A DNA stretch of 64,000 nt from Panopea generosa (taxonomy: Eukaryota > Mollusca > Bivalvia > Adapedonta > Hiatellidae). The notes beneath the pieces are model-generated. The model ran no database searches. It saw nothing but the letters and a program-made list of their open reading frames with translations, and had not been told where the DNA came from. Where the stretch lies: the NCBI GenBank assembly GCA_029582155.1, contig CM055902.1:11318541-11382540 (forward strand), read 5' to 3'. Of this stretch, positions 1-48,100 are shown in pieces (the stretch's first letter is position 1; each line of letters starts with the position of its first letter). A program made the translations under genes and the position numbers.

Positions 1-3000
1 ACACTACTGATGTGTGTGGTATTTAGCTGTGTTTCACAGTACTGATATGTATGGTATTTAGTTTGTGTTTCACTGTGTTTCACAGTACTGATGTGTATGG
101 TATTCAGTTTGTGTTTCACAGTACTGATGTGTGTGTTATATAGTCTGTGTTTCACAGTATTGATTTGAATGGTATTCACTTTGTGTTTCACAGTACTGAT
201 GTGTATTGTAATAAGTTCCGTTTCACAGTAAGGATGTGTATGGTATTTAGTTTGCGTTTCACAGTTCTGATGTGTATGGTATTTAGTTTGCGTTTCACAG
301 TACTGATGTGTATTGTATTTAGTTTGCATTTCATAGTATGGATGTGTATGGTATTTAGTTTGCGTTTCACAGTACCGATGTGTATGGTATTTAGTTTGCT
401 TTTCACAGTACCGATGTGTATGGTATTTAATTGTGTTTCACAGTACTGATGTGTATGGTATTTAGTTTGCGTTTCACAGTACGGATGTGTATGATGTTTA
501 GTTTGCGTTTCACAGTACTGATGTGTATGGTATTTAGTTTGCATTTCACAGTACGGATGTGTATGATGTTTAGTTTGCATTTCACAGTACTGATGTGCAT
601 GGTATTTAGTTTGCATTTCACAGTACGGATGTGTATGGTATTTAGTTTGCATTTCACAGTACGGATGTGTATGATGTTTAGTTTGCATTTCACAGTACTG
701 ATGTGTATGGTATTTAGTTTGCATTTCACAGTACTGATGTGTATGGTATTTAGTTTGCGTTTCACAGTACCGATGTGTATGATGTTTAGTTTGCGTTTCA
801 CAGTACCGATGTGTATGGTATTTAGTTTGCATTTCACAGTACTGATGTGTATGGTATTTAGTTAGCGTTTCAAAGTATTGATGTGTATGGTATTTAGTTT
901 GTGTTTCACAGTACTGATGTGTATGGTATTTAGTTTGTGTTTCACAGTACTGATGTGTATGGTATTTAGTTGTGTTTCACAGTACTGATGTGTATGGTAT
1001 TTAGCTTGTGTTTCACGGTACTGATGTGTATGGTATTTAGTTTTTGTTTCACAGTACTGATGTGTATGATGTTTAGTTTGCATTTCACAGTACTGATGTG
1101 TATGGTATTTAGTTTGTGTTTCACAGTACTTATGTTTTGGTATTTAGTTTGCGTTTCACAGTACTGATGTGTATGGTATTTAGTGTGTTTCAAAGTACTG
1201 ATGTGTATGGCATTTAGTTTGTGTTTCACAGTGCTGATGTGTATGGAATTTAGTTTGCGTTTCACATTACTGATGTGTATATTATTTAGTTTGCATTTCA
1301 CAGTACTGATGTGTATGGTATTTAGTTTGCGTTTCACAGTACTAATGTGTATGGTACTTAGTTTGTGTTTCACAGTACTGATGTGTATGGTATTTAGTTT
1401 GTGTTTCACAGTACTGATGTGTATGGTTTTAAGTTGTGTTTCACATTACTGATGTGTATGGTATTTAGTTTGTGTTTCACAGTACTGATGTGTTTGGTAT
1501 TGGGTTTGTGTTTCACAGTAAACATGTGTATGGTATTTAGTTAATGTTTCACAGTACAGATGTGTATGGTATTTAGTTTGTGTTTCACAGTAGTACTGAT
1601 GTGTATGGTATTTAGTTTGCATTTCACAGTACTGATGTGTATGGTATTTAGTTGTGTTTCACAATACTGATGTGTATAGTATTTAGTTTGTATTTCACTG
1701 TGTTTCACAGAACTGATGTGTATGGTATTTAGTATGCCTTTCACAGTATTGTTGTGCATGGTATTTTGTTGTGTTTCACAGTACTGATGTGTATAGTATT
1801 TAGTTGTGTTTCACAGTACTGATGTGTATGGTATTTAGTTTGTGTTTTATAGTACTGATGTTATGGTATTTAGTTTGCATTTCACAGTACTGATGTATAT
1901 GGTATTTAGTTGTGTTTCACAGTACTGATGTGTATGCTATTTAGTTTGTGTTTCACAGTACTGATGTGTATGGTATTTAGTTTGTGTTTCACAGTACTGA
2001 TGTGTTTGGTATTGAGTTTGTGTTTCACAGTACTGATGTGTATGGTATTTTGTTTGTGTTTCACAGTACTGATGTGTATAGTATTTAGTTGTGTTTCACA
2101 GTACTGATGTGTATGGTATAGTTTGTGTTTTATAGCACTGGTGTTATGGTATTTAGTTTGCTTTTCACAGTACTGATGTGTATGGTATTTGGTTGTGTTT
2201 CACAGTACTGATGTGTTTGATATTTTGTTTGTGTTTCACAGTACTTATGTTTTGGTATTTAGTTTGCGTTTCACAGTACTGATGTGTATGGTATTTAGTG
2301 TGTTTCAAAGTACTGATGTGTATGGCACTTAGTTTGTGTTTCACAGTGCTGATGTGTATGGAATTTAGTTTGCGTTTCACATTACTGATGTGTATATTAT
2401 TTAATTTGCATTTCACAGTACTGACGTGTATGGTATTTAGTTTGCGTTTCACAGTACTTATGTGTATGGTACTTAGTTTGTGTTTCACAGTACTGATGTG
2501 TATGGTATTTAGTTTGTGTTTCACAGTACTGATGTGTATGGTTTTAAGTTGTGTTTCACATTACTGATGTGTATGGTATTTAGTTTGTGTTTCACAGTAC
2601 TGATGTGTTTGGTATTGAGTTTGTGTTTCACAGTACTGATGTGTATTGTATTTAGTTTATGTTTCACAGTACTGATGTGTTTGGTATTGAGTTTGTGTTT
2701 CACAGTACTGATGTGTATAGTATTTAGTTGTGTTTCACAGTACTGATGTGTATGGTATTTAGTTTGTGTTTTATAGTACTGATGTTATGGTATTTAGTTT
2801 GCATTTCACAGAACTGATGTGTATGGTATTTGGTTGTGTTTCACAGTACTGATGTGTTTGGTATTTTGTTTGTGTTTCACAGTACTGATGTGTATGGTAT
2901 TTAGTTTGTGTTTCACATTACTGATGTGTATTGTATTTAGTTTGTGTTTCACAGTACCGATATCTATGGTTTTTAGTTGTGTTTCACAGTACTGATTTGT

Positions 3001-5537
3001 ATGTTATTTAGTTTGTGTTTCACAGTACTGATTTGTATGGTATTTAATATGCCTTTCACAGTACTGATGTGTACGATATTTAGTTTGCGTTTCACAGTAC
3101 TGATGTGTATTGTATTTAGTTTGCGTTTCACAGTACTGATGTGTATGGTATATAGTTTGTGTTTCACAGTATGGATGTTTTTGGTATTTAGTTTGTGTTT
3201 CACAGTACTGATGTTTATGGTATTTAGTTTGTGTTTCACAGTACTGATGTGTATGATATTTAGTTTGCGTTTCACAGTACTGATGTGTATTGTATTTAGT
3301 TTTCATTTCACAGTACTGATGTGTATGGTATATAGTTTATGTTTCACCGTATGGATGTTTTTGGTATTTAGTTTGTGTTTCACAGTACTGATGTGTATGG
3401 TATTTAGTTTGTGTTTCACAGTACTGATGTGTTTGGTATTGAGTTTGCATTTCACAGTACTGATGTGTATGGTATTTAGTTGTGTTTCACAGTACTGATG
3501 TGTATGGTATTTAGTTTGTGTTTCACAGTACTGATGTGTATGGTATTTAGTTTGTGTTTCACAGTACTGATGAGTATGATATTTAGTTATGTTTCACAGT
3601 ACTGATGTGTATGGTATTTAATTTGTGTATTACAGTACTGATGTTATGGTATTTAGTTTGCATTTCATAGTACTAATATGTATGGTATTTAGTTTGTGTT
3701 TCACAGTACTGATGTTTAAGGTATTTAGTTGTGTTTCACAGTGCTGATGTTTATGGTATTTAATTTGTGTTTCACATTACTGATGTTATGGTATTTAGTT
3801 TGCGTTTCACAGTACTAATATGTATGGTATTTAGTTTGTGTTTCACAGTACTGATGTGTATGGTATTTAGTTGTGTTTCACAGTACTGATGTGTATCATT
3901 TTTAGTTTGTGTTTCACACTACTGATGTGTATGGTATTTAGTTTGTGTTTCACAGTACTGATGAGTATGATATTTAGTTATGTTTCACAGTACTGATGTG
4001 TATGGTATTTAATTTGTGTATTACAGTACTGATGTTATGGTATTTAGTTTGCATTTCATAGTACTAATATGTATGGTATTTAGTTTGTGTTTCACAGTAC
4101 TGATGTTTAAGGTATTTAGTTGTGTTTCACAGTGCTGATGTTTATGGTATTTAATTTGTGTTTCACAGTACTGATGTTATGGTATTTAGTTTGCGTTTCA
4201 CAGTACTAATATGTATGGTATTTAGTTTGTGTTTCACAGTACTGATGTGTATGGTATTTAGTTGTGTTTCACAGTACTGATGTGTATTATTTTTAGTTTG
4301 TGTTTCACAGTACTGATGTGTATTGTATTTAATTTGTGTTTCACAGTACTGATGTGTATGGTATTTAGTTATGTTTCACAATACTGATGTGTATGATATT
4401 TAGTTTGTGTTTCACTGTGTTTCACAGTACTGATGTGTATGGTATTTAGTTGTGTTCACAGTACTGATGTGTATGGTATTAAGTTGTGTTTCACAGTACT
4501 GATGTGTATGGTATTTTGTTTGTGTTTCACAGTACTGATGTGTATTGTATTTAGTTTGTGTTTCACAGTACTGATGTGTATGGTATTTAGTTTGTGTTTC
4601 ACAGTACTGATGTGTTTGGTATTGAGTTTGCGTTTCACAGTACTGATGTGTATGGTATTTTGTTTGTGTTTCACAGTACTGATGTGTATGGTATTTTGTT
4701 TGTATTTCACAGTACTGATGTGTATGGTATTTGGTTGCGTTTCACAGTACTGATGTGTATGGTATTTAGTTATGTTTCATAGTACTGATGTTATGTTATT
4801 TAGTTTGCATTTCACAGTACTGATGTGTATGGTATTTAGTTTGTGATTAACAGTACGGATGTGTATGGTATTTAGTTTGTGTTTCACAGTACTGATGTGT
4901 TTGGTATTGAGTTTGCGTTTCACAGTACTGATGTGTATGGTATTTTGTTTGTGTTTCACAGTACTGATGTGTATGGTATTTTGTTTGTATTTCACAGTAC
5001 TGATGTGTATGGTATTTGGTGTGCGTTTCACAGTACTGATGTGTATGGTATTTAGTTTGCATTTCACAGTACTGATGTGTATGGTATTTAGTTTGTGATT
5101 AACAGTACGGATGTGTATGGTATTTAGTTTGTGTTTCACAGTACTGATGTGTTTGGTATTGAGTTTGCATTTCACAGTACTGATGTGTATTGTATTTTGT
5201 TTGTGTTTTACAGTACTGATGTGTATGGTATTTAGTTTGTGTTTCACAGTACTGATGTGTATGGTATTTTGTTTGTATTTCACAGTACTGATGTGTATGG
5301 TATTTAGTTGTGTTTCACAGTACTGATGTGTGTGGTATTTAGTTTTTTTTTTTCACAGAACTGATGTGTATGGTATTTAGTTTGTGTTTCACAGTACTGA
5401 TGTGTATGGTATTTAGTTTGTGTATCACAGTACTGATGTGTTTGGTATTGAGCTTGCGTTTCACAGTACTGATGTGTATGGTATTTTGTTTGTGTTTCAC
5501 AGTACTGATGTGTATGGTATTTAGTTTGTGTTTAAAA
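1..5537. repeat. Minisatellite, 36-bp unit, about 150 copies
   Basis: The stretch is almost wholly a tandem array of a 36-bp unit with the core GTTTCACAGTACTGATGTGT followed by a GGTATTTAGTTTGT segment. Variant units of 34-35 bp occur where GTTTGTG is shortened to GTTGTG. Because 36 is a multiple of three, long frames stay open on both strands and read as 12-residue repeats; these are not genes. Longer-period structure is present: a block near 1128-1580 recurs near 2243-2690 (offset 1115 bp), and a block near 3568 recurs near 3959 (offset 391 bp). The array probably lies in an intron of the plus-strand gene ending at 9291. Confidence 0.95.
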
Positions 5538-20414: not shown

Positions 20415-23400
20415 CTGTTAAATATAAAATATTGAATATGGACATGTAAAACATAATTATATGTATAAACGTATGCATAAAACATAAATGTATAATGAAT
20501 TTCACAGCTATAGTGTATAGCCCACAGACATTCTCGATTATTTACATTTGTAACTCAGCTCCATTAGTTACCGTATTTACTGTATGTATTGGGACAGCAA
20601 CAAATAATTAATTTTTTGGCTGTCCCAATACTTATTATTTTTTTTAAAATTCTTTTTGATTATCCCAATACATAGGGTAAATTATATAAGATTTTGTGGG
20701 ATATATCCCACGGACTATGTCCATGAATGCTCATTTTTACCTTCCGTCATATTTTACAATAAAACAGTCTTTTCAGATATTACAATAGATTATGATGCCA
20801 GAAATGTCACAAATACGCAAGAAATCAACACACAGTCATAGTATAAAAGGCACAACTTCTACTGTTAACTGGTTTTAACCTACAACAATTTATTTAACAA
20901 TATAAAGGTGGTGGTACAGACTGGCATCATCACAAGTATAAGGTATGATCATATTTCATGAACTTGTTTGAGATCTTATGGTTACATAGCTACGTCTACA
21001 ATAATGCTAGAGTGTACAGATAAGTGCACACATGGTCAAACAAAACAATTTTTAATTACTAAAGTGCCATAACCAAGACGATCATTATCCAAATAACTAA
21101 TGTGTAAGTACATGTATAGGAAAGATTCAATGAAAGCTGCCTGTGCTGGACTGCAGCATCAACTTTTTATGCTTCAGGAGCCATAACTTGGACATTAACT
21201 ATTTTGGACATTAACTATCTGATTCATTCATTTGAGAAATAGTTTGACGTCTGTTCTTTATGTAACTACTGTTTGAATTTCATCACAACCCAACAAAAGA
21301 CGTGGATGCCACATGTGTACAAAAGGTCAATTAGTGTGATGTTTTCAGTATCAAGGGACACAACTCTAACTTTACTTCTCTACCAACACAACCTGCACTA
21401 TATTGCACCATAATGCATTGTACAGTACCACCTCCCTACATTGTACCACACACTACCCCAAGTAGAAACTGCACGTAATCTTCTCCAGGAAGAATGATGC
21501 AGTATAAAAAGGAACATTTAACATTTAAATTGATAATAAAAAAATAAAACAAGGAGTACAGTCATAAGCATACCTCCAACACAAAATAATCATCTTTCAT
21601 AACAGCATCCGGGTCATCGTCTTTTTCAGTCAACTGCAATATACAGACGACAATTAAATAACGTTGTTTACATGAACACAATGTGATGTGAGCTAGGTCT
21701 AAATTCATAAACATTGAGTTGAAAACTTACATTCAAATCAAAATCTCTAAACAATCAACTCACAATATAAACCACATTATCACATGTTTCACTTTTTATT
21801 GGTCATTTATGACAAAAAGTTCAAACAAGAGGCCAAAGAGGGCCTGATATCACTCTACTTGCAACAAATGGACAGATGAACATTTCAATGAAAATGAATT
21901 TTGTAAGTTTCTCTTCAACAAATGTTGTAGTTGACCACAATGCAATGGTACACGTAAGAAATCTAAGGTCTAGGCCTTGAACTTTCAAAGAAATGTTTTT
22001 TAAAGTTTCGCTTAAAATGTGTTTATAAGCCCTGTAGCAGGGGCATTTGTGGTCCAATCACACTGGTTCTAGAACTTGTCTGTGGTTGCATAACTGCTGT
22101 GCAAGTTTGGTAAAAATTCAATGAAAAATGGGGGGTGTTATTGCATCTATAATAGTTTCCTTATATAACACTATTTAAAACAGTGACCCCTATGGCACTC
22201 CCAAATTTGATTTCAGGGACCTGACCTCAACAAACCGTTAAGAGGACCTCGATGCAATGCTACATGAAAAATATCTAAGGTCTAGACATTGAACTTTCAG
22301 AGAAAATGTTTTTCAATTTAAATGTGCTTATAAGCACTGTTGCGGGGGCATTTGTGCTTGAATCACACTGGTACAAGAACTTGTCCGAGATCTTGTGGAG
22401 ATGTTACCCCCAGTGGTACAATAAATAACTCACATTGTGTTTGCAGATATTGTGGAGATGTTACCCCCAGTGGTACAATAAATAACTCATATTGTGTTTG
22501 CAGATCTTCTGGAGATGTTTCCCCCAGTGGTACAATTAACAACTCATATTGTGTTTGCAGATCTTCTGGAGATGTTTCCCCCAGTGTTCCAATAAATAAC
22601 TCACCTCATGTTTACAGATCTTGTGGTGTTACCCCCAGTGATAAAATAAATAACTCACATTGTTTTTGCAGATCTTGTGGAGATGTTACCCAGCATGGTA
22701 CAATAAATAACTCACCTTATGTTTGCAGATCCTGCAGAGATGATATCCCAATTGGTACAATAAATAACTCGCACTATGTTTGCAAATCTTATTAAGATGA
22801 TATTCCCAATGGTACAATAAATAACTTACCTCGTGTTTGCAGATTTTGTGGAGATGTTACCACCAGCGGCACAGTAAATAACTAATATAGTGTTTGCAGA
22901 TCTTGTGGAGATGTTACCCCCAGCAGCACAATAAATAACTCACATTGTGTTTGCAAATTTTGTGGAGATGTTATCCCCAATAGTACAATAAATAACTCAT
23001 CTCATGTTTGCAGAATTTGTTGAGATGTTACCACCAGCGGCACAATAAATAACTCACCTCATGTTTGCAGATCTTGCGGAGATGATATTCCCAATGGTAC
23101 AATAAACAACTTACCTCGTGTTTGCAGATTTTGTGGAGATGTTACCACCAGTAGCACAATAAATAACTCACCTCATGTTTGCAGATCTTGCAGAGATGAT
23201 ATTCCCATTGGTACAATAAATAACTCACATTGTGTTTGCAGATCTTGTGGAGATGATATTCCCAATGGTATCATTAATAACTCACCTCATGTTGTAGATT
23301 TTGTGGAGATAATATTCCCAATGGTACAATAAATAACTCACCTCCTGTTTGCAGATCTTGTGGAGATGATATTCCCAATGGTACAATAAATAACTCACCT

Positions 23401-24140
23401 CATGTTTGCAGATTTTGTGGAGGTGATATTTCCAATGGTACAATAAATAACTCACCTTGTGTTTGCAGAATTTGTTGAGATGTTACCACCAGCGGCACAA
23501 TAAATAACTCACCTCATGTTTGCAGATTTTGTGGAGATTTACCCCAGCGGCACAATAAATAACTCACCTCATGTTTGCAGATCTTGTGGAGATGATATTC
23601 CCAATGGTACCATAAATAACTCACCTCCTGTTTGCAGATTTTGTGGAGATGAAACACCCAATGGTACAACCTATGGTAGAGCTTGGCTCGCTCATAGCAA
23701 AAGCAGCCTACTTTGAATTTTGTTTCATCAGTAGAATCATCACTATCTTCATCTTCACCATCATCATCATCAGCGGATTCCTGTTTAAATACATAGATTT
23801 TGCACAATATATGTTGTGTACAATCCTTTAATACCATATCTCATGTTTTGCTCTGGTACATGTAGTAAACTAGAAATAGGGTACAATAGAATATTTACAA
23901 CATGGGAACATGTATGACATTAGAACATGTAGTAAACTAGAAATAGGGTACAATAAAATATTTAAAACATGGAAACATGTATGACATTAGAACATGTAAG
24001 ACACTAGAATATTATATTACAATGGAAAATAAAGTACACTTCAACTGTAGAACACTAGAGCATGTAGTACACTAGAACATGTGATATGTTAGAACATATG
24101 GTACATTAGAATACACTAGAACTGTAGTAAACTAGAACCT

Positions 24141-24172
<32 letters not shown>

Positions 24173-27100
24173 ATATATATATATAAACATGGTGTACACT
24201 AGAAAATGTGCACCAAATTAGCATAGTGAATACAAGAACATTTAGTGCACTATAACATGTAGTATATTAGAACACATAGTACATCAGGACATGTAGTACA
24301 GCAGGACATGTAGTACAACAGGACATGTACAGCAGGACATGTAGTACACCAGGACATGTTCAGCAGGACATGTAGTACACCCATACATGTAGTACACCAG
24401 GATATGTAGTACACCAGGACATGTAGTTAACCACAACATGTAGTACACCAGGACATAATTATAGTACACCTTGGCGTGTAGTACACCAGGAAGTATAGTA
24501 CACCAGGACATGCAGTACACCAGACAATGTACAGCAGGAAATATATTACACCCAGACATGCAGTACACCAGGACATGTAGTACACCAGGACATGAAGTAC
24601 ATCAGGACATTCAGTACACCAGGACATTTAGTACACCAGGACTTGTAGTACACCTGGACATGTAGTACACCAGGACATGTAGTACACAAGGACATTTAGT
24701 ACACCAGGATATGTTATACACCATGACATGTAGTAGACCAGGGTATGTAGTACACTAGGACATGTAATACACCAGGACATGTAGTCAATCAGGATATGTA
24801 GTACACCAGGACATGTAGTACACCATGGCATGTAGTACACCACCAGGACATGTAGTACACCACCAGGACATGTAGTACACCAGTACATGTAATACACCAG
24901 GACATGTAGTACACCTGGACATGTAGTACACCAGGACATGTAGTCCATCAGGATATGTAGTACACCAGGACATGTAGTACACCAGGACATGTAGTACACC
25001 AGAACATGTAGTCCATCAGGATATGTAGTACACTCGGACATGTAGTACACCAGGAAATGTAGTACACCAGGATATGTTATACATTAGGACATGAAGTACA
25101 CCAGGACATACAGTACACCAGGACATGTAGTACACCTGGACATGTAGTACACCAGGAAATGTAGTACACCAGGATATGTAATACAACAGGCATTAAATAC
25201 ACCAGGACATGTAGTACACCAGGACATACAGTACACCAGGACATGTAGTACACCAGGACATGTACAGTACGCATACTCTAGTCAAAGTTTATTCATTTTG
25301 TAGAACATAAACACACAAACTTAAAGTATTTCAATTGACATACAATAACAGAGATATTAAATAAATAATAAATAATAATCACCTGTTCTTTAAAACTTAT
25401 TCTGTTGTATGGATTCCCTTTAAAGACAATCACATTGTTCCATGGATGGCCTTTTCGCTTGCAAGCCTATAATTGAATTAATAAAATATTTGAAGTGGCA
25501 AATGTGCCCCATTTTGGAAAAAAAATTATCATTTAAGAATTGCAGTATGTGAAATTTAATAAAGGTTTTGTAAAGTTATTTTCAATTTGCATATTTGACC
25601 TTGAACAAAGAGTTACAGACATAAATTTGTGCAAACATTCCTCACCCGTGGCATGAAAGACTAAACCAAATAAAGTCATTTTGCTGCCAGACTCAATAAC
25701 CAGAACTCAGGTACTGATGGATCTGATCCCAGGGTTATGTACTTACATGGTGAAGTTCCAGTGACAATACTGATGCCCATGTGCACACAAGGTCAAATAA
25801 AACAATGTTTGATAATGTAAGGACTATAACTCAGGTATCTATTATCAAGTTATATCGCTACTGTGGAAATCTGGTCAAGGTACAGAGGAAAATACAAGTG
25901 CTAATGTATTCAAAATCTACAAGTTAACGAGCAGGCATCAGACACACAATGATCAGAAAAGTTCATGTTGAGCAGGCATCAGACACACAATGATCAGAAT
26001 AGCTCATGTTGAGCAGGCATCAGACACACAATGATCAGAAAAGCTCATGTTGAGCAGGCATCAGACACACAATGATCAGAAAAGCTCATGTTGAGCAGGC
26101 ATCAGACACACAATGATCAGAATAGCTCTTGTTGAGCAGGCATTAGACATACAATGATCAGAAAAGCTCATGCTGATCTGTAAGCTTGTATAAGCTGACC
26201 GTGTACAGATGGAAATCTCACCTCACAGTCTGTTAAACAGCCCATCGCCCATTCAACAGAATCCCTAGTGCCAGCATCTTTAAAATCCGGGTATTTCTTA
26301 ATGGATCTCTGCATAAATAAAGAATAAATATACACACAAGTCAAACACATCTTCGTAAATATTTTATTTTCCCATCTTCAGAACACTGGTCTATTAATGA
26401 AGGATTTAACGTAACAGAGAGCATCACTGGAATTATTTTTATGTTTTAGACACACGGCTTACAATACCTCCTGCTTTCATTTATCTCTCAACTCTTGAGC
26501 TAAGGACATTTTGACAGATCTCTAAGTTTATTTAACTCGACCTATCACTATCCAAGCTTCTTTTTAGGTTATGAACATTTCTACAAAAGTTCATCCAAAT
26601 AGATTTATTTAACAGAAGCGAAAGTTCGCAGCTGACGACAACTAAGATAACAACAGTTAGTAGTCATATTAGTTTTAACAAGCAAATTCTGTGAATTTAT
26701 GTCCACCACTTTTTCAAAAAGATTTGATTCAGTCATTCTTAAGTTATTGCACAGAAACCTCCAAAATACGATTTTTCACTAATTAAAGGGGCATAACTGT
26801 AGCCTGCATTTTGTCATTATAAACGTTGTATTAAAATTTCAAAAGATTTGATTCAGGCATTCTTAAGTTATTGAACAGAAACCAAAGTGTGATGGACAGA
26901 CAGACAGACCCAAATAAGTGTCTCTTGCTTTTCGCAAAGAGGGGCACAAAAACATCAGTTAAGATATTTAAACATACAATTGATAATTCCTTGTGTTTTT
27001 TTCATCACACCAATTAAACCTGATTAAAATTAATGTTGTATGGTTAAATTTGCATCGCTTTCAACAAGTTTTCAGTTATATTGCAATGGCGTCTACTTGA

Positions 27101-30100: not shown

Positions 30101-33100
30101 AACCTGTCAATGAGGTATGAGGTTTGTATATGATCAGAAAAGTTAATAAAATGATTAAATACCAACCCGGCTAAACTTCTTCTTTTTACGGATTTTTTTC
30201 AGTGCAACACTAGAGCTACTGTCTTCATCGCTGTCAGATATAGATGTTCCCGGTATTTTTGGTGAGTAAACAATTGTGTCCACAGAGTCTGATGAGTCTG
30301 AATAAAATGTAGCAGTGATTACTTTACTGACAACATCTCTGTTAAAGGCACTGTATCATAATTTTTTTCAAAATTTTAAAATTAGTCAAATGGTTCTCCG
30401 TGATGGAGCGGTCTAAGGCGCCATCGTAAGATCACTTACCTCTCACTGCTAAGGTCATAGGTTCAAGTCCCGCTTGCTCCAAAAACTTTATGTCAGAAAG
30501 ACATCTTTTAACTTTTAACTCATCCATTCCCATTTGTATGTATAATCATTAAACATTAGTGTGAAATGTAAATGGGAGGGGGGTCTGGAAGGGAAAATTG
30601 CATTTAATAATAAACATTTTGACTGCATTTCAAACAAATTGTTGATGTATTAAATGGATTACCGTGAGTGCCAATAGGCAGCCATGTGTGTCATGTGGTT
30701 GACGGTATTAAATAGTCCACTCCTAGTCTGTAGAACGAAACCAGCTCTCCCATTTGGGTCCGTTAAAAAGCAATAGAAACGAGCACACTGATTGGTCAGT
30801 TGCTTCAGGGAAAGTTTGAATGACATTATAATTTAGTAAGCGTTCAATTGCAATGAAATGCAAGACAGGCATAGAATTCACTGCTGTTTTCATTGGGAGT
30901 TAATAGACCTAGACTGCATTTTACAAAATAACTTAAGATAAAAATCGCTGTAAGTCAATTTCACTATGTTCAAATTTTGACAGACATTTAAAACGATAGT
31001 ATTTCCAGCAAACATTTCATTCTCTGCAAAACTTGAGCCAACTTTGGGTTTATTTGGTTGATTATTAAAAATATTATGAATAATTGTTGGTTTACATTTA
31101 GAACGATTTTCATCACAAGATGTTTTAGTGAAACACATCCCTGATTTGGGAGATATCAGGTTCTGGGAAAGACAGTCCACTCCAGCAGATTTGCTGGTTC
31201 CTTGTAAATGTTACTGATTTAAAGCTCTATTCACATCTGTATTATAAACATACCTTCGTCATCACTAACAACTACTCGTTTTCGTTTCTTCAGACTTTTT
31301 GGTCTCGTTATCTCATCTTCATCATCATCAATAGCAGCAGCATCAGTAGTGTCGTTGTTACCAACATCCTCAATGTCATCTTCGTCCATTACTTTAGTTG
31401 TGCCACTGTCATGATCGTGATCATTTCTAATTATACAAAAATTGTACTTGTCAAACATACAATACAAGAATCCACAAAGGTGCCTTCTGCTAGTTATGGG
31501 TCTTGCCACTTGTCAAGGTGCTTTCTGCTAGTTATGGGTCTTGCCACTTGACAAGGTGCCTTCTGCTAGTTACGGGTTTTGCCACTTTTCAAGGTGCCTT
31601 CTGCTAGTTATGGGTTTTGCTACTTGTCAAGGTGGTTTCTGCTAGTTACGGGTCTTGCCGCTTGTCAAGGTGCCTTCTGCTAGTTATGGGTATTGCCACT
31701 TGTCAAGTGCTTTCTGCTATTTATGTGTCTTGCCACTTGTCATGGCATAGGTCACCAGAATGTTGCTAGATGGAAATTTTCGTTTTTCTCTCTTTTTCAT
31801 TGCATAACTTATCATATGAATATTAACACAACCTATTTAACATTTTAGTAAGGCCTCGTTTAGTTTTTGTATCTTTTGCCTCAATAATTTAGAGAAAAAC
31901 ATTTTTGTTACAGTTAAAAACTCAATCTGAAAGTTCCATCTTCCAATTCATTGTCACTTGTCTTGTAATATACATACTATAAGAATCTAACATGGTTTTG
32001 ACATTCAGATAGAAAAAAAAGTCTGTCCCAATGGATTTAGTCACATCACAAAGTGCTAAGTGCTTCAATACTTGAATATCATTCTGCAGACACATGGGAT
32101 GATAGCCTAACCAGTCACATTATACAGACACTAGGCCGACCAGATCTAGAACTATCCTCGGTAGTCAAGAATCAGCTGATGCTTTTAGTTTTTTGTGTGA
32201 CCTGATCAGGGATCTCAAATCAACATGAGCATGAGGCAGATGCTCTACCATAAACCACCATAACAATATCTACCAAATATTAAGCAAATAAACAACCATT
32301 CCAATATCTACCAAATATAAAGCAAATTAACAACCAAACCAATATCTACCAAATATAAAGCAAACTATCCACCATAACAATATCTACTAAATATAAAGCA
32401 AATAATCCACCAAAGCAATATCTACCAAATATCAAGAAAATTAACCACCATACCAACATCTACCAAATATAAAGCAAATAAACCACCAAACCAATATCTA
32501 CCAAATATAAAGCAAATTAACCACCATACCAATATCTACCAAATATAAAGCAAGTTATCCACCATACCAATATCTACCAAATATAAAGCAAATTAACCAC
32601 CATGCCAATATCTACCAAATATAAAGCAATTTAACCACCAAACCAATATCTACCAAATATTTAGCAAATAAACCACCATTCCAATATCTACCAAATATAA
32701 AGAAAATTTACCACCATACCAATATCTACCAAATATAAAGCAAATTAACCACCATACCAATATCTACCAAATTTAAGCAAGTTATCCACCATACCAATAT
32801 CTACCAAATATAAAGCAAATGAACCACTGTACCAATATCAACCAAATATAAAGCAAATTAACCACCATGCCAATATCTACCAAATATAAAGAAAATTTAC
32901 CACCATACCAATATCTACCAAATATAAAGCAAATTAACAACCAAACCAATATCTACCAAATATTTAGCAAATACAACACGATGCCAATATCTACCAAATA
33001 TAAAGCAAATTAACCACAATACCAATATCTACCAAATATAAAGCAAATTAACCACCATGCCAATATATACCAAATATAAAGAAAATTTATCACCATACCA

Positions 33101-36100: not shown

Positions 36101-39100
36101 CCATATACTGCAATAAGACATTACTGGTGTATAAAAAAAAATGACATTTAAGTGGAAAACGTATCAGTTATTTGTGAAGATTAGTGTGCTCGAGTGCAAA
36201 AACTAGTCAGATTTACTGATCATCTGGTAGCCTTTGATGGCAAAATATGACACTAAATATTCAAACAAACAAACAACTTCAAAAACAAATCTTATATATA
36301 CTGACCTTGATATTTACGAACACTCACTCCTTTGATCGCTAACACTGGCTCAGTCAATGACGCAGGTTGTGAGAAATTCTGTGCCTAAACCAACAAAAAT
36401 TTAAAATACTATTTGTTAAAACGTTTATATTTAGGTCATAAATTAATTGCTAGATTAGGATCCAAATTTTTCTTAAAAACAGAAAGTCCAACACTTACAC
36501 AACTGTACACAAATACTTCCCCAAGTTCCAAACCTCAGGAAGTATTTGTATAAAGCTGTCCAAGTGTCAGACTTTCTGTTTTACAGATTGGAAATGAAAA
36601 TTATGAGGTCACAAGAACAAAATTGTATATAGATAACAAGAAAAAAGCACTGTTTTACCAAACAATGAAGCAGGGCAGTAGTGTAGTCGATAGTGTTAGC
36701 TGCTTAGGCCTGAGATTCCGGGTTCATTCCCAAGCTCTACCAGATATCTATAAATAATCAACACTCAGACTTGAGAGCGATTCATATAAACTTTAAGATT
36801 TCTTCACAATCAAGCTTAAATAACTTAGTATAAACTAAACAACTACGTAAAAAAATAGCAATACCTCACTCATACAAAATCAGCTCCAGACTTGTTAACA
36901 TATCATGCTGATTATGTCTGGCCAGTTAAAACAGAAGGCAGAGTTTAGATCACAAGCAAATGTTAACAGACAAACAGGAGACATCATACCATCATAATCA
37001 TGTTCCATTTTTCAAACAGGTGTATAAAAATGAAGTGTGTAATATAGCCTATGTACTGAAGTTTCTTACATGATTCCCCCATAATGCCACTTCAACTCTG
37101 TTATCATCTTTATCAGAGAGGATCAGCTTTCTAAAGTGTGTTGGACCTCTAACTGTTTCTTTATTTTCAAGTTGTCCCACTTCAATCAGCAATCCAATAA
37201 CATCTGCTAAAGTAAACAATTATTTATAATATACCAGTATGACCAATACAAGGCTATACATGGAAACACATAAATGAGGCATGAATTTTAAAATATTGTT
37301 TGTTTGCTGCTTCCAGCTGGCTCACAACAACAGTGCAGGTTAGAAACATTGTACAATATTGAATAACTAGTTCTACCTCATGGACAAAACCTTGTACATT
37401 AACCAGTTCTACCTCATGGACAGCACCTTGTACATTAACTAGTTCTACCTCATGAGCAACACCTTGTACAATAACTAATTCTACCTCATGGACAACACCT
37501 TGTACAATAACTAATTCTACCTCATGGACAACACCTTGTACAATTACTAGTTCTACCTCATGGACAACACCTTGTACATTAACTAGTTCTACCTCATCAA
37601 AAACATATAAACTCATTCTACCTCATGAGCAACAACTTGTACATTAACTACTTTTACCTCATGGACAACACCTTGTAGATTTACTAGTTCTACCTCATGG
37701 ACAACACCTTGTGCAATAACAAGTTCTACCTCATGGACAACACCTTTTACAATAAATAATTCTACCTCATGGACAACACCTCGGTCATTAACTAGTTCAA
37801 CCTCATGGACAACACCTTGTACAATAACTAGTTCTACCTCATGGGCAACACCTTGTACAATAACTAATTCTACCTCATGAGCAACACCTTGTACATTAAC
37901 TAGTTCTACCTCATGAGCAACACCTTGTACAATAACTAGTTCTACCTCATGAGCAACACCATGTACAATAACTAGTTCTACCACATGGACAACACCTTAT
38001 TCAATAACTTGTTCTACCTCATGGACAACACCTTGTACATTTACTAGTTCTACCTTATGAGCAACACATTGTACATTAACTAGTTTTACCTCATGGGTAA
38101 CACCTTGTACATTAACTAGTTCTACTTCATGTGCAAGACCTTGTACAATAACTAGTTCTACCTCATGGACAACACCTTGTACATTAACTAGTTCTACCTC
38201 ATGAGCAACACCTTGAACATTAACTAGTTCTACCTCATGGACAACACCTTGTACAATTACTAGTTCTATCTCAGGAGCAACACCTTGTACATTAACTAGT
38301 TCTACCTCATGAGCAACACCTTGTACATTAACTAGTTCTACCTCACGGACAACACCTTGTACATTAACTAGTTCTAACTCATAGACAACACCTTGTACAA
38401 TAACTAGTTCTACCTCATGAGCAACACTTTTTACAATAACTAGTTCTACCTCATGGACAACACCTTGTGCATTACCTAGTTCTACCTCATGAGCAACACC
38501 TAGTACAATAACTAAATTTACTTATGGACAACACCTTGTACATTAACTAGTTCTACCTCATGGACAACACCTTGTATAATTACTAGTTCTACCTCATGGT
38601 GTTTTGTACATTAACTCGTTCTACCTAATCAACAACACCTTTTACAATAAATAGTTCAACCTCATGGACAACACTTTGGTCATAAACAAGTTCTACCTCA
38701 TGGACAACACACTGTACAATAACTAGTTCTACCTCACGAGAACACCTTGTACAATGACTAGTTCTACCTCATGGACAACACCTTGTACATTAACTAGTTC
38801 TACCTCATCGACAACATATTAACTAGTTCTACCACATGAGCAACACCTTGTACATTAACTACTTTTACCTCATGGACAACACCTTGTAGATTTAATAGTT
38901 CTACCTCATGAACAACACCTTGTGCAAAAACTAGTTTTACCTCATGGACAACACCTTTTACAATAAATAGTTCTACCTCATGGAAAACACCTTGTACAAT
39001 AACTAGTTCTACCTCATGGACAACACCTTGTACAACTACTAGTTCTACCTCATGGACAACAACTTGTACATTAACTAGTTCTACCTCATCAACACCACCT

Positions 39101-42100
39101 TTTACAATAAATAGTTCTACCTCATGGACAACACTTTGGTCATTAATTAGTTCTACCTCACGAGCAACACCTTGTACAATAACTAGTTCTACCTCATGGA
39201 CAACACCTTGTACATTACCTAGTTCTACCTAATCGACATTATATTAACTAGTTCTAACTCATGAGCAACACCTTGTACATTAACTACTTTAACCTCATGG
39301 ACAACACCTTGTAGATTTACTAGTTCTACCTCATGAACAACACCTTGTGCAATAAGTAGTTCTACCTCATGGACAACACCTTTTACAATAAATAGTTCTA
39401 CCTCATGGACAACACCTTGTACAATAACTAGTTCTACCTCATGAGCAACACCTTGTACAGTAACTAGTTCTATCTCATGGACAACACCTTGTACATTTAC
39501 TAGTTCTACCTTATGGAAAACACCTTGTACAATAACTAGTTCTACCTCATGAGCAACACCATGTACAATAACTAGTTCTAACCCATGGACAACACCTTGT
39601 TCAATAACTTGTTCTACCTCATGGACAACACCTTGTACATTTACTAGATCTACCTTATGAGCAACACATTGTACATTAACAAGTTCTACCTCATGGACAG
39701 CACCTTGTACATTAACTAGTTCTACTTCATGAGCAAGACCTTGTACAATAACTAGTTCTACCTCATGTACAACACCTTGTACATTAACTTGTTCTACCTT
39801 ATGAGCAACACATTGTACATTAACTAGTTCTACCTCATGGACAGCACCTTGTACATTAACTAGTTCTACTTCATGAGCAAGACCTTGTACAATAACTAGT
39901 TCTACCTCATGTACAACACCTTGTACATTAACTTGTTCTACCTCATGAGCAACACCTTGAACATTAACTAGTTCTACCTCATGGACAACACCTTGTACAA
40001 AAACTAGTTCTACCTCAGGAGCAACACCTTGTACATTAACTTGTTCTACCTCATGAGCAACACCATGTACATTAACTAGTTCTACCCCATGGACAACACC
40101 TTCTTCAATAACTTGTTCTACCTCATGGACAACACCTTGTACATTGACAAGTTCTACCTCATGGACAACACCTTGTACATTAGATAGTTCTACCTCATGA
40201 GCAACACATAGTACAATAACTAATTCTATGTCATGGACAACACCTTGTACATTAACTAGTTCTACCCTATGGACAACAGATTATACAATAACTATTTCTA
40301 CCTTTTGGACAACACCTTGTACAATAACTAGCTCTACCTAATGAACAACACCTTGTACAATTACTAGTTCTACCTCATGGACAACACCTTGTACACTAAC
40401 TAGTTCTACCTCATGGACAACAGATTGTACAACAACTAGTTCTACCTTATGGACAACACCTTGTACAATAACTAGCTCTACCTCACGGACAACAATTTGT
40501 ACAATTACTAGTTCTACCTCATGGACAACACCTTGTACATTAACTAGTTTTACCTCATCGACAACATATTAACTAGTTCTACCTCATGAGCAACACCTTG
40601 AACATTAACTAGTTCTACCTGATGGACAACACTTTGTAGATTTATTAGTTCTACCTCATGGACAACACCTTGTGCAATAACTAGTTCTACCTCATGGACA
40701 ACACCTTTTACAATAACTAGTTCTACCTCATGGACAACACCTGGGTCAATAACTAGTTCTAGCTCATGGACAACACCTTGTACAATAACTAGTTCTACCT
40801 CATAGACAACACCTTGAACATTTACTAGTTCTACCTCATGGAAAACACTTTGTAGATTTACTAGTTCTACCTCATGGACAACACCTTGTACAATAACTAG
40901 TTCAACCTCATGGACAACACCTTTTACAATAACTAGTTCAACCTCATGGACAGCACCTCGGTCATTAACTAGTTCTACCTCATGGACAACACCTTGTACA
41001 ATAACTAGTTCTACCTCATAGACAACACCTTGTACAATAACAAGGTCTACTTCATGGACAACACCTTGTACAATAACTAGTTCTGCCTCATGGACAACAC
41101 CTTGTACAATAGCTAGTTCTACCACATGAACAATACCTTGTACAATAACTAGTTCTACCTCATGGACAACACCTTGTACATTTACTAGTTCTACCTCATG
41201 GACAACACCTTGTACAAAAACTAGTTCTACCTCATGAGCAACACCTTGTACAATAAATAGTTCTACCTCAAGGACAACACCCTGTACAATAACTAGTTCT
41301 ACCTCTTGGGCAACACCTTGTTCAATAACTAGTTCTACCTCATGGACAACACCTTGTACAATAACTGGTTTTACCTCAAGGACAACACCTTGTACAATAA
41401 CTAGTTCTACCTCATGGGCAGCACCTTGTACAATAACTAGTTATACCTCATGGACAACACCTTGTTCAATAACTAGTTCTACCTACCTCATGGACAACAC
41501 CTTGTACATTTACTAGTTCTACCTGATGAGCAACACATTGTACATTATTTAGTTCTACCTCATTGGCAGCAACCTGTACATTAACTAGTTCTACCTCATG
41601 AGCAAGACCTTGTACAATAACTAGTTCTACCTCATGGACAACACCTTGTACAATAACTATTTCTACCTCATGAGCAAGACCTTGTACAATAACTAGTTCT
41701 ACCTCATGGACAACACCTTGTACAATTACTAGTTATATCTCATGGACAACACCTTGTACAATTACTAGTTCTACCTCATGGACTACACCTTGTTTAATAA
41801 CTAGTTCTACCTCATGGACAAAACCTTGTATAATAACTAGTTCTACCTCATGAGAAACACCTTGTACAATAACTAGTTCTACCTCTTGGGCAACACCTTG
41901 TTCAATAACTAGTTCTACCCCATGGGCAGTACCATGTACAATAACTGGTTCTACATCATGAGCAACACCTTGTACATTAACTAGTTCTACCTCATGGGCA
42001 TCACCTTGTACAATAACTAGTGATACCTACCTCATGGACAACACCTTGTACATTTACTAGTTCTACCTCATGGACAACACCTTGTACAATAACTAGTTCT

Positions 42101-45100
42101 ACCTGATGGACAACACACTGTACATTAACTAGTTCTACCTCATTGGCAGCACCCTGTATATTAACTAGTTCTACCTCATGAACAAGACCTTGTACAATAA
42201 CTAGTTATATCTCATGGACAACACCATGTAAAATTACTAGTTCTACCTCATGGATTACACCTGGTTCAATAACCAGTTCTACCTGATGGACAACACCTAG
42301 TATAATAACTAGTTCTACCTCATGAGCAACACCTTTTACAATAACTAGTTCTACCTCATGGACAACACCTTGTTCAATAACTTGTTCTACCTCATGGACA
42401 ACACCTTGTACATTTACTAGATCTACCGTATGAGCAACACATTGTACATTAACTAGTTCTACCTCATTGGCAGCACTTTGTACATTAACTAGTTCTTCTT
42501 CATGAGCAAGACTTTGAACAATAACTTGTTCTACCTCATGTACAACACCTTGTACATTAACTAGTTCTACCTCATGAGCAACACCTTCAACATTAACTAG
42601 TTCTACCTCAGGAGCAACACCTTGTACATTAACTAGTTCTACCTCATGAGCAACACCATGTACATTAACTAGTTCTACCTCATGGACAACACCTTGTTCA
42701 TTAACTAGTTCTACCTCATGGACAACACCTTGTACAATAACTAGTTCTACCTCATGAGCAACACATTGTATAATAACTAGATCTACCTCATGGACAACAC
42801 CTTGTACATTTACTAGTTCTACCGCATGAGCAACACATTGTACATTAACTAGTTCTACCTCACTGGCAGCACCCTGTACATTAACTAGTTTTACCTCATG
42901 AGCAAGACCTTGTACATTAACTAGTTCTACCTCATGGACAACACCTTGTATAATAACTACTTCTATCTCATGGACAACACCTTGTACAATTACTAGTTAT
43001 ACCTCATGGACTACACCTTGTTCAATAACTAGTTCTACCTCATGGACAACACCTTGTTCAATAACTAGTTCTACCACATGGGCAGCACCTTGTACAATAA
43101 CTAGTTCTACATCAAGAGCAACACCTTGTACATTAACTAGTTCTACCTCATGGACTACACCTTGTACAATAACTAGTTCTACCTCATGAGCAACACATTG
43201 TACAATAATTAGTTCTACCTCATGGACAACACCTTGTGCATTACCTAGTTCTACCTCATGAGCAACACCTAGTACAATAACTAATTCTACCTCATGGACA
43301 ACACCTTGTACAATAACTAGTTCTACCTCACGAGCAACATATTGTACAATAACTAGTTCTACCTGATGAACAACACCTTGTACAATAACTAGTTCTACCT
43401 CATGGACAACACCTTGTACAATAACTAGTTCTACCTGATGGACAACACCTTGTACATTAACTAGTTCTACCTCATGGACTACACCTTGTACAATAACTAG
43501 TTCTACCTCATGAGCAACACCTAGTACAATAACTAATTCTACCTCATGGACATCACTTTGTTCAATAACTTGTTCTACCTCATGAGCAACACCTAGTACA
43601 ATAACTAATTCTACCTCATGGACATCACCTTGTACAATAACTAGTTCTACCTCACGAGCAACACCCTGTACAATAACTAGTTCTACCTCATCGACAACAT
43701 ATTAACTAGTTCTACCTCATGAGCAACACCTTTAACATTAAATAGTTCTACCTCATGGACAACACCTTGTAGATTTACTAGTTCTACCTCATGCACAACA
43801 CCTTTTGCAATAACTAGTTCTACCTCATGGACAACACCTTTTACAATAACTAGTTCTATCTCATGGACAACACCTAGGTCATTAACTAGTTCTACCTCAT
43901 GGACAACACCTTGTACCATAACAAGTTCTACCTCATGAGCAACACCATGTACAATAACTAGTTCTACCTCATGAGCAACACCTTGTACATTAACTAGTTC
44001 TACCTCATGGACAACACCTTGTACATTAACTAGTTCTACCTCATAGACAACACTTAGTACAATAACTAGTTCTACCTCATGAGCAACACATTGTACATTA
44101 ACTAGTTCTACCTCATGGGCAGCACCTTGTACATTAACTAGTTCTACTTAATGAGCAAGACCTTGTACAATAACTAGTTCTACCTCATGGACAACACCTT
44201 GTACAATAACTAGTTCTGCCTCATGGACAACACCTTGTACAATAGCTAGTTCTACCACATGGGCAGCACCTTGTACAATAACTAGTGATACCTACCTCAT
44301 GGACAACACCTTGTACATTTACTAGTTCTACCTCATGGACAACACCTTGTACAAAAACTAGTTCTACCTCATGAGCAACACCTTGTACAATAAATAGTTC
44401 TATCTCATGGACAACACCTTGTACAATAACTAGTTCTACCTCATGGACAACACCTTGTACAATAACTAGTTCTATCTCATGGACAACACCTTGTACAATA
44501 ACTAGTTCTACCTGATGGACAACACCTTGTACATTAACTAGTTCTACCTCATGGACTACACCTTGTTCAATAACTAGTTCTACCACATGGGCAGCACCTT
44601 GTACAATAACTAGTTCTACCCCATGGACAACACCTGTTCAATAACTTTCTTACCTCATGGACAACACCTTGTACATTTACTAGATCTACCTTATGAGCAA
44701 CACATTGTACAATAACTAGTTCTACCTCATGGACAACACCTTGTGCATAACCTAGTTCTACCTCATGGACAACACCTTGTGCATTACCTAGTTCTATCTC
44801 ATGAGCAACACATAGTACAATAACTAATTCTACCTCATGGACAACATCTTGTACAATAACTAGTTCTACCTCACGAGCAACATATTGTACAATAACTAGT
44901 TCTACCTCATGAGGAAGAACTTGTACATTAACTAGTTCTACCTCATAGACAACACTTAGTACAATAACTAGTTCTACCTCATGAGCAACACCATGTTCAA
45001 TAACTAGTTCTACCCCATGGACAACACCTTGTTCAATAACTTGTTCTACCTCATGGACAACACCTTGTACATTTACTAGATCTACCTTATGAACAACACA

Positions 45101-48100
45101 TTGTACATTAACTAGTTCTACCTCATGGGCAGCACCTTGTAAATTAACTAGTTCTACTTCATGAGCAAGACCTTGTACAATAACTAGTTCTACCTCATGT
45201 ACAACACCTTGTACATTAACTAGTTCTACCTCATGAGCAACACCTTGAACATTAACTCATTCTACCTCATGGACAACACCTTGTATAAAAACTAGTTCTA
45301 CCTCAGGAGCAACACCTTGTACATTAACTAGTTATACCTCATGAGCAACACCATGTACATTAACTAGTTCTACCTCATGGACAACACCTTGTACATTAAC
45401 TAGTTCTACCTCATGGACAACACCTTGCACAATAACTAGTTCTACCTCATGAGCAACACATTGTATAATAACTAGTTCTACCTCATGGACAACACCTTGT
45501 ACATTTACTAGTTCTACTTCATGAGCAACACATTGTACATTAACTAGTTCTACCTCATTGGCAGCACCCTGTACATTAACTAGTTCTACCTCATGAGCAA
45601 GACCTTGTACAATACCTAGTTCTATCTCATGGACAACACCTTGTACAATAACTAGTTCTACCTCATGGACAACACCTTGTGCAATAACTAGTCCTATCTC
45701 ATGGACAACACCTTGTACAATAACTAGTTCTATCTCATGGACAACACCTTGTACATTTACTAGTTCTACCTCATGAGCAACACATTGTACATTAACTAGT
45801 TCTACCTCATTGGCAGCACCCTGTACATTAACTAGTTCTACCTCATGAGCAGGACCTTGTGCAATAACTAGTCCTACCTCATGGACAACACCTTGTACAA
45901 TAACTAGTTCTATCTAATGGACAACACCTTGTACAATAACTAGTTCTACCTCATGGACAACACCTTGTGCAATAACTAGTCCTATCTCATGGACAACACC
46001 TTGTACAATAACTAGTTCTACCTGATGGACAACACCTTGTACATTAACTAGTTCTACCTCATGGACTACACCTTGTTCAATAACTAGTTCTATAACATGG
46101 GCAGCACCTTGTACAATAACTAATTCTACCCCATGGACAACACCTTGTTCAATAACTTGTTCTATCTCATGGACAACACCTTGTACATTAACTAGTTCTA
46201 CCTCATGGACAACAGATTGTACAATAACTAATTCTATCTTATGGACAACACCTTGTACAATAACTAGCTCTATCTCATGGAAAACACCTTCAAGATTTAC
46301 TAGTTCTACCTCATGCACAACACCTTGTGCAATAACTAGTTCTACCTCATGGACAACACCTTTTACAATAACTAGTTCTACCTCATGGACAACACCTAGG
46401 TCATTAACTAGTTCTACCTCATGGACAACACCTTGTACCATAACTAGTTCTACCTCATGAGCAACACCATGTACAATAACTAGTTCTACCTCATGAGCAA
46501 CACCTTGTACAGTTACTAGTTCTACCTCATGGACAACACCTTGTACATTAACTAGTTCTACCTCATGGACAACACCTAGTACAATAACTAGTTCTACCTC
46601 ATGAGCAACACCATGTTCAATAACTAGTTCTACCTCATGGACAACACCTAGTACAATAACTAGTTCTACCTCATGGACAACACCTTTTACAATAACTAGT
46701 TCTACCTCATGGACAACACCTAGGTCATTAACTAGTTCTACCTCATGGACAACACCTTGTACCATAACTAATTCTACCTCATGAGCAACACCATGTACAA
46801 TAACTAGTTCTACCTCATGAGCAACACCTTGTACAGTTACTAGTTCTACCTCATGGACAACACCTTGTACATTAACTAGTTCTACCTCATGGACAACACC
46901 TAGTACAATAACTAGTTCTACCTCATGAGCAACACCATGTTCAATAACTAGTTCTACCCCATGGACAACACCTTGTACATTTACTAGATCTACGTTATGA
47001 GCAACACATTGTACATTAACTAGTTCTACCTCATGGGCAACACCTTGTACATTAACTAGTTCTACTTCATGAGCAAGACCTTGTACAATAACTAGTTCTA
47101 CCTCATGTACAACACCTTGTACATTAACTAGTTCTACCTCATGAGCAACACCTTGAACATTACCTAGTTGTACCTCATGGACAACACCTTGTACAAAAAC
47201 TAGTTCTACCTCAGGAGCAACACCTTGTACATTAACTAGTTCTACCTCATGAGCATCACAATGTACATTAACTAGTTCTACCTCATGGACAACACCTTGT
47301 ACATTAACTAGTTCTACCTCATGGACAACACCTTGTACAATAACCAGTTCTACCTCATGAGCAACACATTGTATAATAACTAGTTCTTACTCATGGACAA
47401 CACCTTGTACATTAAATAGTTCTACCTCATGAGCAACACATAGTACAACAACTAATTCTACCTCATGGACAACACCTTGTACATTAACTAGTTCTACCCC
47501 ATGGACAACAGATTGTACAATAAATAGTTCTACCTTATGGACAACACCTTGTACAATAACTAGCTCTACCTCATGGAAAACACCTTGTACAATTACTAGT
47601 TCTACCTCATAGACAACACCTTGTACATTAACTAGTTCTACCTCATGGACAACAGATTGTACAATAACTAGTTCTACCTTATGGACAACACCTTGTACAA
47701 TAACTAGCTCTATCTCATAAAAACACCGTGTACAATTACTAGTTCTACCTCATGGACAACACCTTGTACATTAACTAGTTTTACCTCATCGACAACATAT
47801 TAACTAGTTCTACCTCATGAGCAACACCTTGAACATTAACTAGTTCTACCTCATGGACAACACCTTGTAGATTTACTAGTTCTACCTCATGGACAACACC
47901 TTGTGCAATAACTAGTTCTACCTCATGGACAACACCTTTTACAATAACTAGTTCTACCTCATGGACAACACCTAGGTCATTAACTAGTTCTACCTCATGG
48001 ACAACACCTTGTACAATAACTAGTTCTACCTCATGGACAACACCTTTTACAATAACTAGTTCTACCTCATGGACAACACCTAGGTCATTAACTAGTTCCA

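Follow-up and report, generated by a model that had tools for sequence, protein, structure and literature searches.

An intronic tandem array of an exon end and its splice donor in Panopea generosa resembles amphioxus mirages

Introduction

When the end of a coding exon and its splice donor recur in tandem through the following intron, does the resulting row of 5' splice sites serve the gene, or is it a minisatellite that the gene tolerates? The question is raised by a 64,000-nucleotide stretch of contig CM055902.1 of the Panopea generosa assembly GCA_029582155.1 (positions 11,318,541 to 11,382,540), hereafter the window, to which all coordinates refer. In amphioxus, 'mirages' have been described as minisatellite-like tandem duplications of an exon–intron boundary, with Adh3, the globins BflGb6 and BflGb9, TnC and PGBD5 among the genes concerned (PMC3087553, PMC3902484); PGBD5 comes from the second of these accounts, which also names Adh and TnC (PMC3902484). 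As reported there, mirages arise at both 5' and 3' boundaries, carry splice signals in many but not every unit (with units of 10-72 bp in Adh3) and are unstable in length, between haplotypes or somatically, and normal splicing is described for the genes that harbour them (Adh3 and the globins; Adh, TnC and PGBD5) (PMC3087553, PMC3902484). They have been proposed as an origin of new introns (PMC3087553). Intron 7 of human F7 is reported to hold a row of very similar 37-bp repeats, the first of which carries the real donor (PMC6627357). According to the model of oriented scanning given for it, the most upstream donor alone is normally used (PMC6627357, citing Borensztajn et al. 2006), and a +5 mutation causes exon skipping and splicing at a cryptic donor further downstream in the intron (PMC6627357). 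In human segmental duplications, internal tandem repeats are also reported to alter the structure of genes (PMC2812944). A literature search directed at molluscs gave no paper on such arrays among the matches listed, as judged by title and start of abstract.

Results

TRF delimits a tandem array at 22388-23669 with a period of 57, 22.6 copies, 83% matches and a score of 1482. In gene sense (minus strand) it reads ...CTCTACCATAGG TTGTACCATTGGGTGTTTCATCTCCACAAAATCTGCAAACAGGAG/GTGAGTTATTTA TGGTACC..., where the slash, here and in the motifs below, marks the exon–intron junction. The 57-bp unit that the exon shares with the array comprises the exon's final 45 coding nucleotides and the initial 12 nucleotides of the intron, which corrects the make-up of 42 + 14 given in a preliminary description of this DNA; the first unit spans the predicted exon–intron boundary, as mirage units do. 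Cut at the donor, the array resolves into 22 donor-bearing units followed by one partial 23rd unit. The first intron bases of the 22 donor-like sites run from 23624 down to 22433, and their spacing is exactly 57 in 18 of the 21 intervals and 55, 56 and 54 in the remaining three, so that successive sites cover the array without a gap and no site between the two outermost ones has been overlooked. The 57-bp exon-end array with about 21 intronic copies that had first been noticed is thus confirmed by both the TRF interval and the donor-like sites (Table 1).

A 20-mer from the core of the unit, searched with up to three mismatches, matches the window 20 times, always on the minus strand and within 22438-23648, against 0.01 matches expected from shuffles. 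A sequence search of the 1.474-Gb genome, in which the best candidates were scored and very common words skipped, returned the array locus as the sole place, which answers, for the candidates scored, whether the array recurs elsewhere. Just past the distal end of the array, at 22369-22376, the eight bases with which the unit opens are found once more in gene sense (TTGTACCA); this recurrence may be due to chance or may be a microhomology involved in the initial duplication.

Table 1. Features of the array locus in window coordinates, listed in gene sense
Feature	Position	Strand	Details
Predicted upstream exon	26222..26308	-	87 nt, phase 0; RSIKKYPDFKDAGTRDSVEWAMGCLTDCE; donor GAG/GTGAGA
Predicted coding exon (exon 13 of the preliminary description)	23625..23780	-	156 nt, 52 codons, phase 0 at both ends; AAACAG acceptor, GAG/GTGAGT donor, open frame; ESADDDDGEDEDSDDSTDETKFKVGCFCYERAKLYHRLYHWVFHLHKICKQE
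Unit 1, predicted true exon–intron boundary 23625/23624	23613..23669	-	Final 45 nt of the exon and initial 12 nt of the intron
Unit 2, the first copy within the intron; frame open	23556..23612	-	First intron base of its donor 23567; would add 19 residues, VSYLWYHWEYHLHKICKHE
Intronic part of the array, units 2-22 and partial 23rd	22388..23612	-	Among 21 donor sites, 12 are strong and 4 weaker; 5 lack GT
Intron holding the array	21634..23624	-	1991 nt; predicted from splice-site matches
Predicted next exon	21574..21633	-	60 nt, phase 0; LTEKDDDPDAVMKDDYFVLE; predicted from splice-site matches

From its splice-site matches and frame, we infer that exon 23780-23625 terminates at 23625. The junction of a coding exon end with an intronic array of donors, as first described, can be seen directly in the window, with the exon end itself remaining a prediction. 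PF13926 (DUF4211), the family named for this gene, gave no hmmscan match to the exon peptides of a partial gene model, taken singly or joined, at E-values up to 1 or 10; the anatomy of the array is independent of that assignment. A search of solved structures for the identity of the gene returned a single match at chance level (E 0.11), and Rfam at gathering thresholds found no RNA family in 21000-25000. Elsewhere in the window, a minus-strand open frame at 37052-37219 contains FTLADVIGLLIEVGQLENKETVRGPTHFRKLILSDKDDNRVEVALWGNHVRNFST; we take this frame to resemble a fragment of an OB fold of the RPA type.

Across all 22 sites, 11 read GAG/GTRAGT, two AAG/GTGAGT and four AAT/GTGAGT, and five are without GT; for the 21 intronic copies the corresponding counts are 10, two, four and five. 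Strong donors ([GA]AG/GTRAGT) are present in 12 of these 21 copies and weaker GT donors in four, and the claim of at least ten good intronic donors holds for GAG/GTRAGT as well as for strong sites overall. As in mirages, splice signals occur in many but not all units (13/22 strong, 4/22 weaker, 5/22 without GT); as in F7, the putative real donor of the first repeat is followed by similar donors. In duplexes with the 5' end of U1, GAG/GTRAGT and AAG/GTGAGT sites reach -10.2 to -10.3 kcal/mol and AAT/GTGAGT sites -5.0 kcal/mol. Donors 1 and 2 are equally strong (-10.3 kcal/mol each), and the donors of six predicted exons of the gene, the array exon included, range from -5.7 to -10.3. With a cut-off of -9 or lower, 13 of the 128 GTs in the 1991-nt intron are strong, and all 13 lie within the array. 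Donors 1-7 are all strong, compared with 6/15 of the later ones (Fisher p 0.017, for a cut picked post hoc with the data seen). Outside 22388-23669, over 62.7 kb, strong U1-type donors are unequal by strand, with 18 on the minus (gene) strand and 4 on the plus strand.

The exon's own terminal peptide is YHWVFHLHKICKQE / LYHWVFHLHKICKQE; the peptide YHWEYHLHKICKHE, previously quoted for the exon, belongs to the intronic copy in unit 2. Splicing at donor 2 would extend the product in frame by 19 residues, and a stop at codon 89, counted from the exon start and located in unit 3, lies ahead of every donor after donor 2. The notion that distal donors would insert 19-residue blocks accordingly survives for donor 2, with one extra copy open and not about two. 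Read singly from the unit start, 13/22 units contain an in-frame stop.

Minisatellites with a period of at least 9 cover 41.9% of the window, compared with 21.3% of a 200-kb genome sample (range 0 to 100%) composed of twenty 10-kb stretches at fixed, non-random coordinates on 19 large contigs. The assembly comprises 1.474 Gb in 39 contigs, most of it in 19 contigs of 42-101 Mb. In a genome this rich in minisatellites, some arrays would be expected to start across an exon end. At least two strong donors were found in one of the 57 TRF rows of the window, which is the array itself, and at least two strong donors or at least two reversed-motif controls in none of the 162 rows of the 200-kb sample (overlapping rows counted separately), so that donor-bearing arrays are infrequent in the surveyed sequence. 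The window also holds a 12-kb array of 36-bp units with about 338 copies (37362-49484, TRF) and a second 36-bp-unit array of 5.4 kb (74-5533, TRF). Two short minisatellites, at 25929-26176 (41 bp) and 31477-31742 (38 bp), lie about 45-50 bp from the predicted exons 26308-26222 and 31426-31254 and do not include the splice sites of these neighbouring exons.

Discussion

We consider it likely that the locus is a minisatellite of the mirage type, which probably originated from the exon end and is tolerated since the upstream donor wins. We propose the following hypothetical course of events, in which (i) the 57-bp stretch at the exon end would have been duplicated via replication slippage or unequal exchange; (ii) the duplicated unit would then have expanded, with partial homogenisation among the copies, as in the other minisatellites of a genome so rich in repeats; (iii) the original donor, as the most upstream among equals, would normally be used, and the array would for this reason be tolerated; (iv) occasional use of donor 2 would lengthen the product by 19 residues, and use of a later donor would lead to a premature stop and probably to nonsense-mediated decay. 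That the first donor is the one used, we infer by analogy with the precedents in other species. This reading is favoured by the uniformly strong first seven donors, the abundance of minisatellites around the array and in the genome sample, the sole locus returned by the genome search and the in-frame stops in 13/22 units. Most likely, the gene tolerates the array as a side effect of a genome in which short tandem repeats abound, and a function beyond tolerance is unneeded.

The variation among the units bears on whether the exon or the array came first. In the unit tree, the exon copy pairs with unit 6 at a weak support of 0.58 and is not basal, and the CAGGAG of the exon copy is common only to unit 6; this grouping suggests that the exon end exchanges sequence with the array, or fed it repeatedly. 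In the alignment, GTGTTT of the exon corresponds to an AATATC-type sequence in exon-like copies and to a GGTAAC-type sequence in others, so that the array does not consist of mere copies of the present exon. An intronic minisatellite might, on these grounds, have existed first, with the exon later extended into the array or converted by it and a unit-borne donor replacing an older upstream one; the non-basal exon copy and an array consensus unlike the exon agree with this order of events. However, the shared part lies within an open phase-0 frame that is continuous with the rest of the exon, and unit 1 alone runs into unrelated upstream exon sequence; these two points fall short of deciding the order, but we regard an array-first origin as unlikely. 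Of the suggestion that a coding exon seeded the array, the membership of the exon end in the array and the single place among the scored candidates of the genome search have held, whereas the exon copy is not the basal one; seeding by the exon is likely. By eye, exon-like units (e.g. ATTGGGAATATC) and units of another kind (CTGGTGGTAAC, CTGGGGGTAAC) alternate along the alignment, which fits the expectation of block duplication. Together with the three units of odd length (55, 56 and 54 bp), the alternating subtypes are compatible with length instability, as seen in one assembly.

Conservation of the donors within the array speaks to a regulatory role, in which competing donors, or U1 held in the intron, would tune splicing or yield an isoform with 19 additional residues, with copy number as the dial. 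Two observations would suit such a role: the array holds all 13 strong donors of the 1991-nt intron, and donor 2 keeps the frame and equals donor 1 in strength. Nevertheless, GT has been lost from 5/21 intronic copies and 4/21 carry the weaker AAT/GT, donors past the second run into the stop, and splicing at the original site is what has been reported for F7 and for the amphioxus genes (PMC6627357, PMC3087553, PMC3902484). The donor is also no better conserved than the rest of the unit. On the unit tree, the nine donor columns show 1.67 parsimony steps per column vs 1.29 elsewhere, and the donor window from -3 to +6 accumulates 15 steps, a number equalled or exceeded by 19/49 nine-column windows, itself counted. 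The most variable of the 49 windows is the junction itself (-6 to +3, 21 steps), and columns +4 to +6 show zero steps across units. Selection keeping the donors is thus not seen in the parsimony steps of this 22-unit array, and a function as decoy U1 sites, which the preliminary description had raised, finds no support in these figures or in the normal splicing reported for the known cases. We therefore judge a regulated ladder of donors to be very improbable. The same small chance is given to a copy-number dial in which donors at 57-nt steps would hold U1 and divert some transcripts to the longer isoform or to decay; if it were true, the length of a hypervariable minisatellite would set gene output between individuals. 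The variability of the junction may be plain decay or may reflect selection breaking decoy donors, and in the latter case decoys would be harmful. By codon position 1, 2 and 3, the steps number 21, 15 and 31, and the excess at position 3 could indicate past coding constraint or the coding ancestry of some copies.

It is scarcely credible that the units, running GT...AG between AG/GTRAGT junctions, serve as introns of 57 nt or as ratchet points in recursive splicing or as an intermediate of intron gain: strong copies do read AG/GTRAGT at a mostly 57-nt spacing, and mirages have been proposed as an origin of new introns (PMC3087553), but recursive splicing is set aside here, as the units make poor acceptors, with a mean pyrimidine share of 0.38 at -20..-5 vs 0.50-0.81 at six predicted acceptors of the gene, and the AG, where present, is GAG or AAG. 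The array exon's own acceptor has the lowest pyrimidine share (0.50) of these six.

The tolerated mirage-type minisatellite that we favour offers equal splice donors in a natural series that is both long and easy to read, additional to the described amphioxus and human F7 cases. It could be used to test whether the first of several equal 5' splice sites is chosen, and it could help to show how frequently repeats or new introns originate from coding exons. Taken alone, the array leaves the view of splicing unchanged.

Among known systems, the amphioxus mirages are similar in having a unit that spans the boundary and splice signals in part of the units, and the 57-bp unit falls within the 10-72 bp of Adh3. 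Unlike them, the array lies in another genome (1.47 Gb, 39 contigs) and another gene, comprises 22 donor-bearing copies and is known here from sequence alone. The likeness to human F7 intron 7 consists in a first repeat with the putative real donor and in similar donors in later repeats; the unit differs (57-bp vs 37-bp), and F7 was tested in cells, whereas the Panopea locus was read from its DNA. As reported for human segmental duplications (PMC2812944), tandem repeats within genes can change gene structure. With its exon end predicted as above, the array shares the anatomy of the amphioxus mirages and of F7 intron 7, and thus belongs to a type of structure that has already been described.
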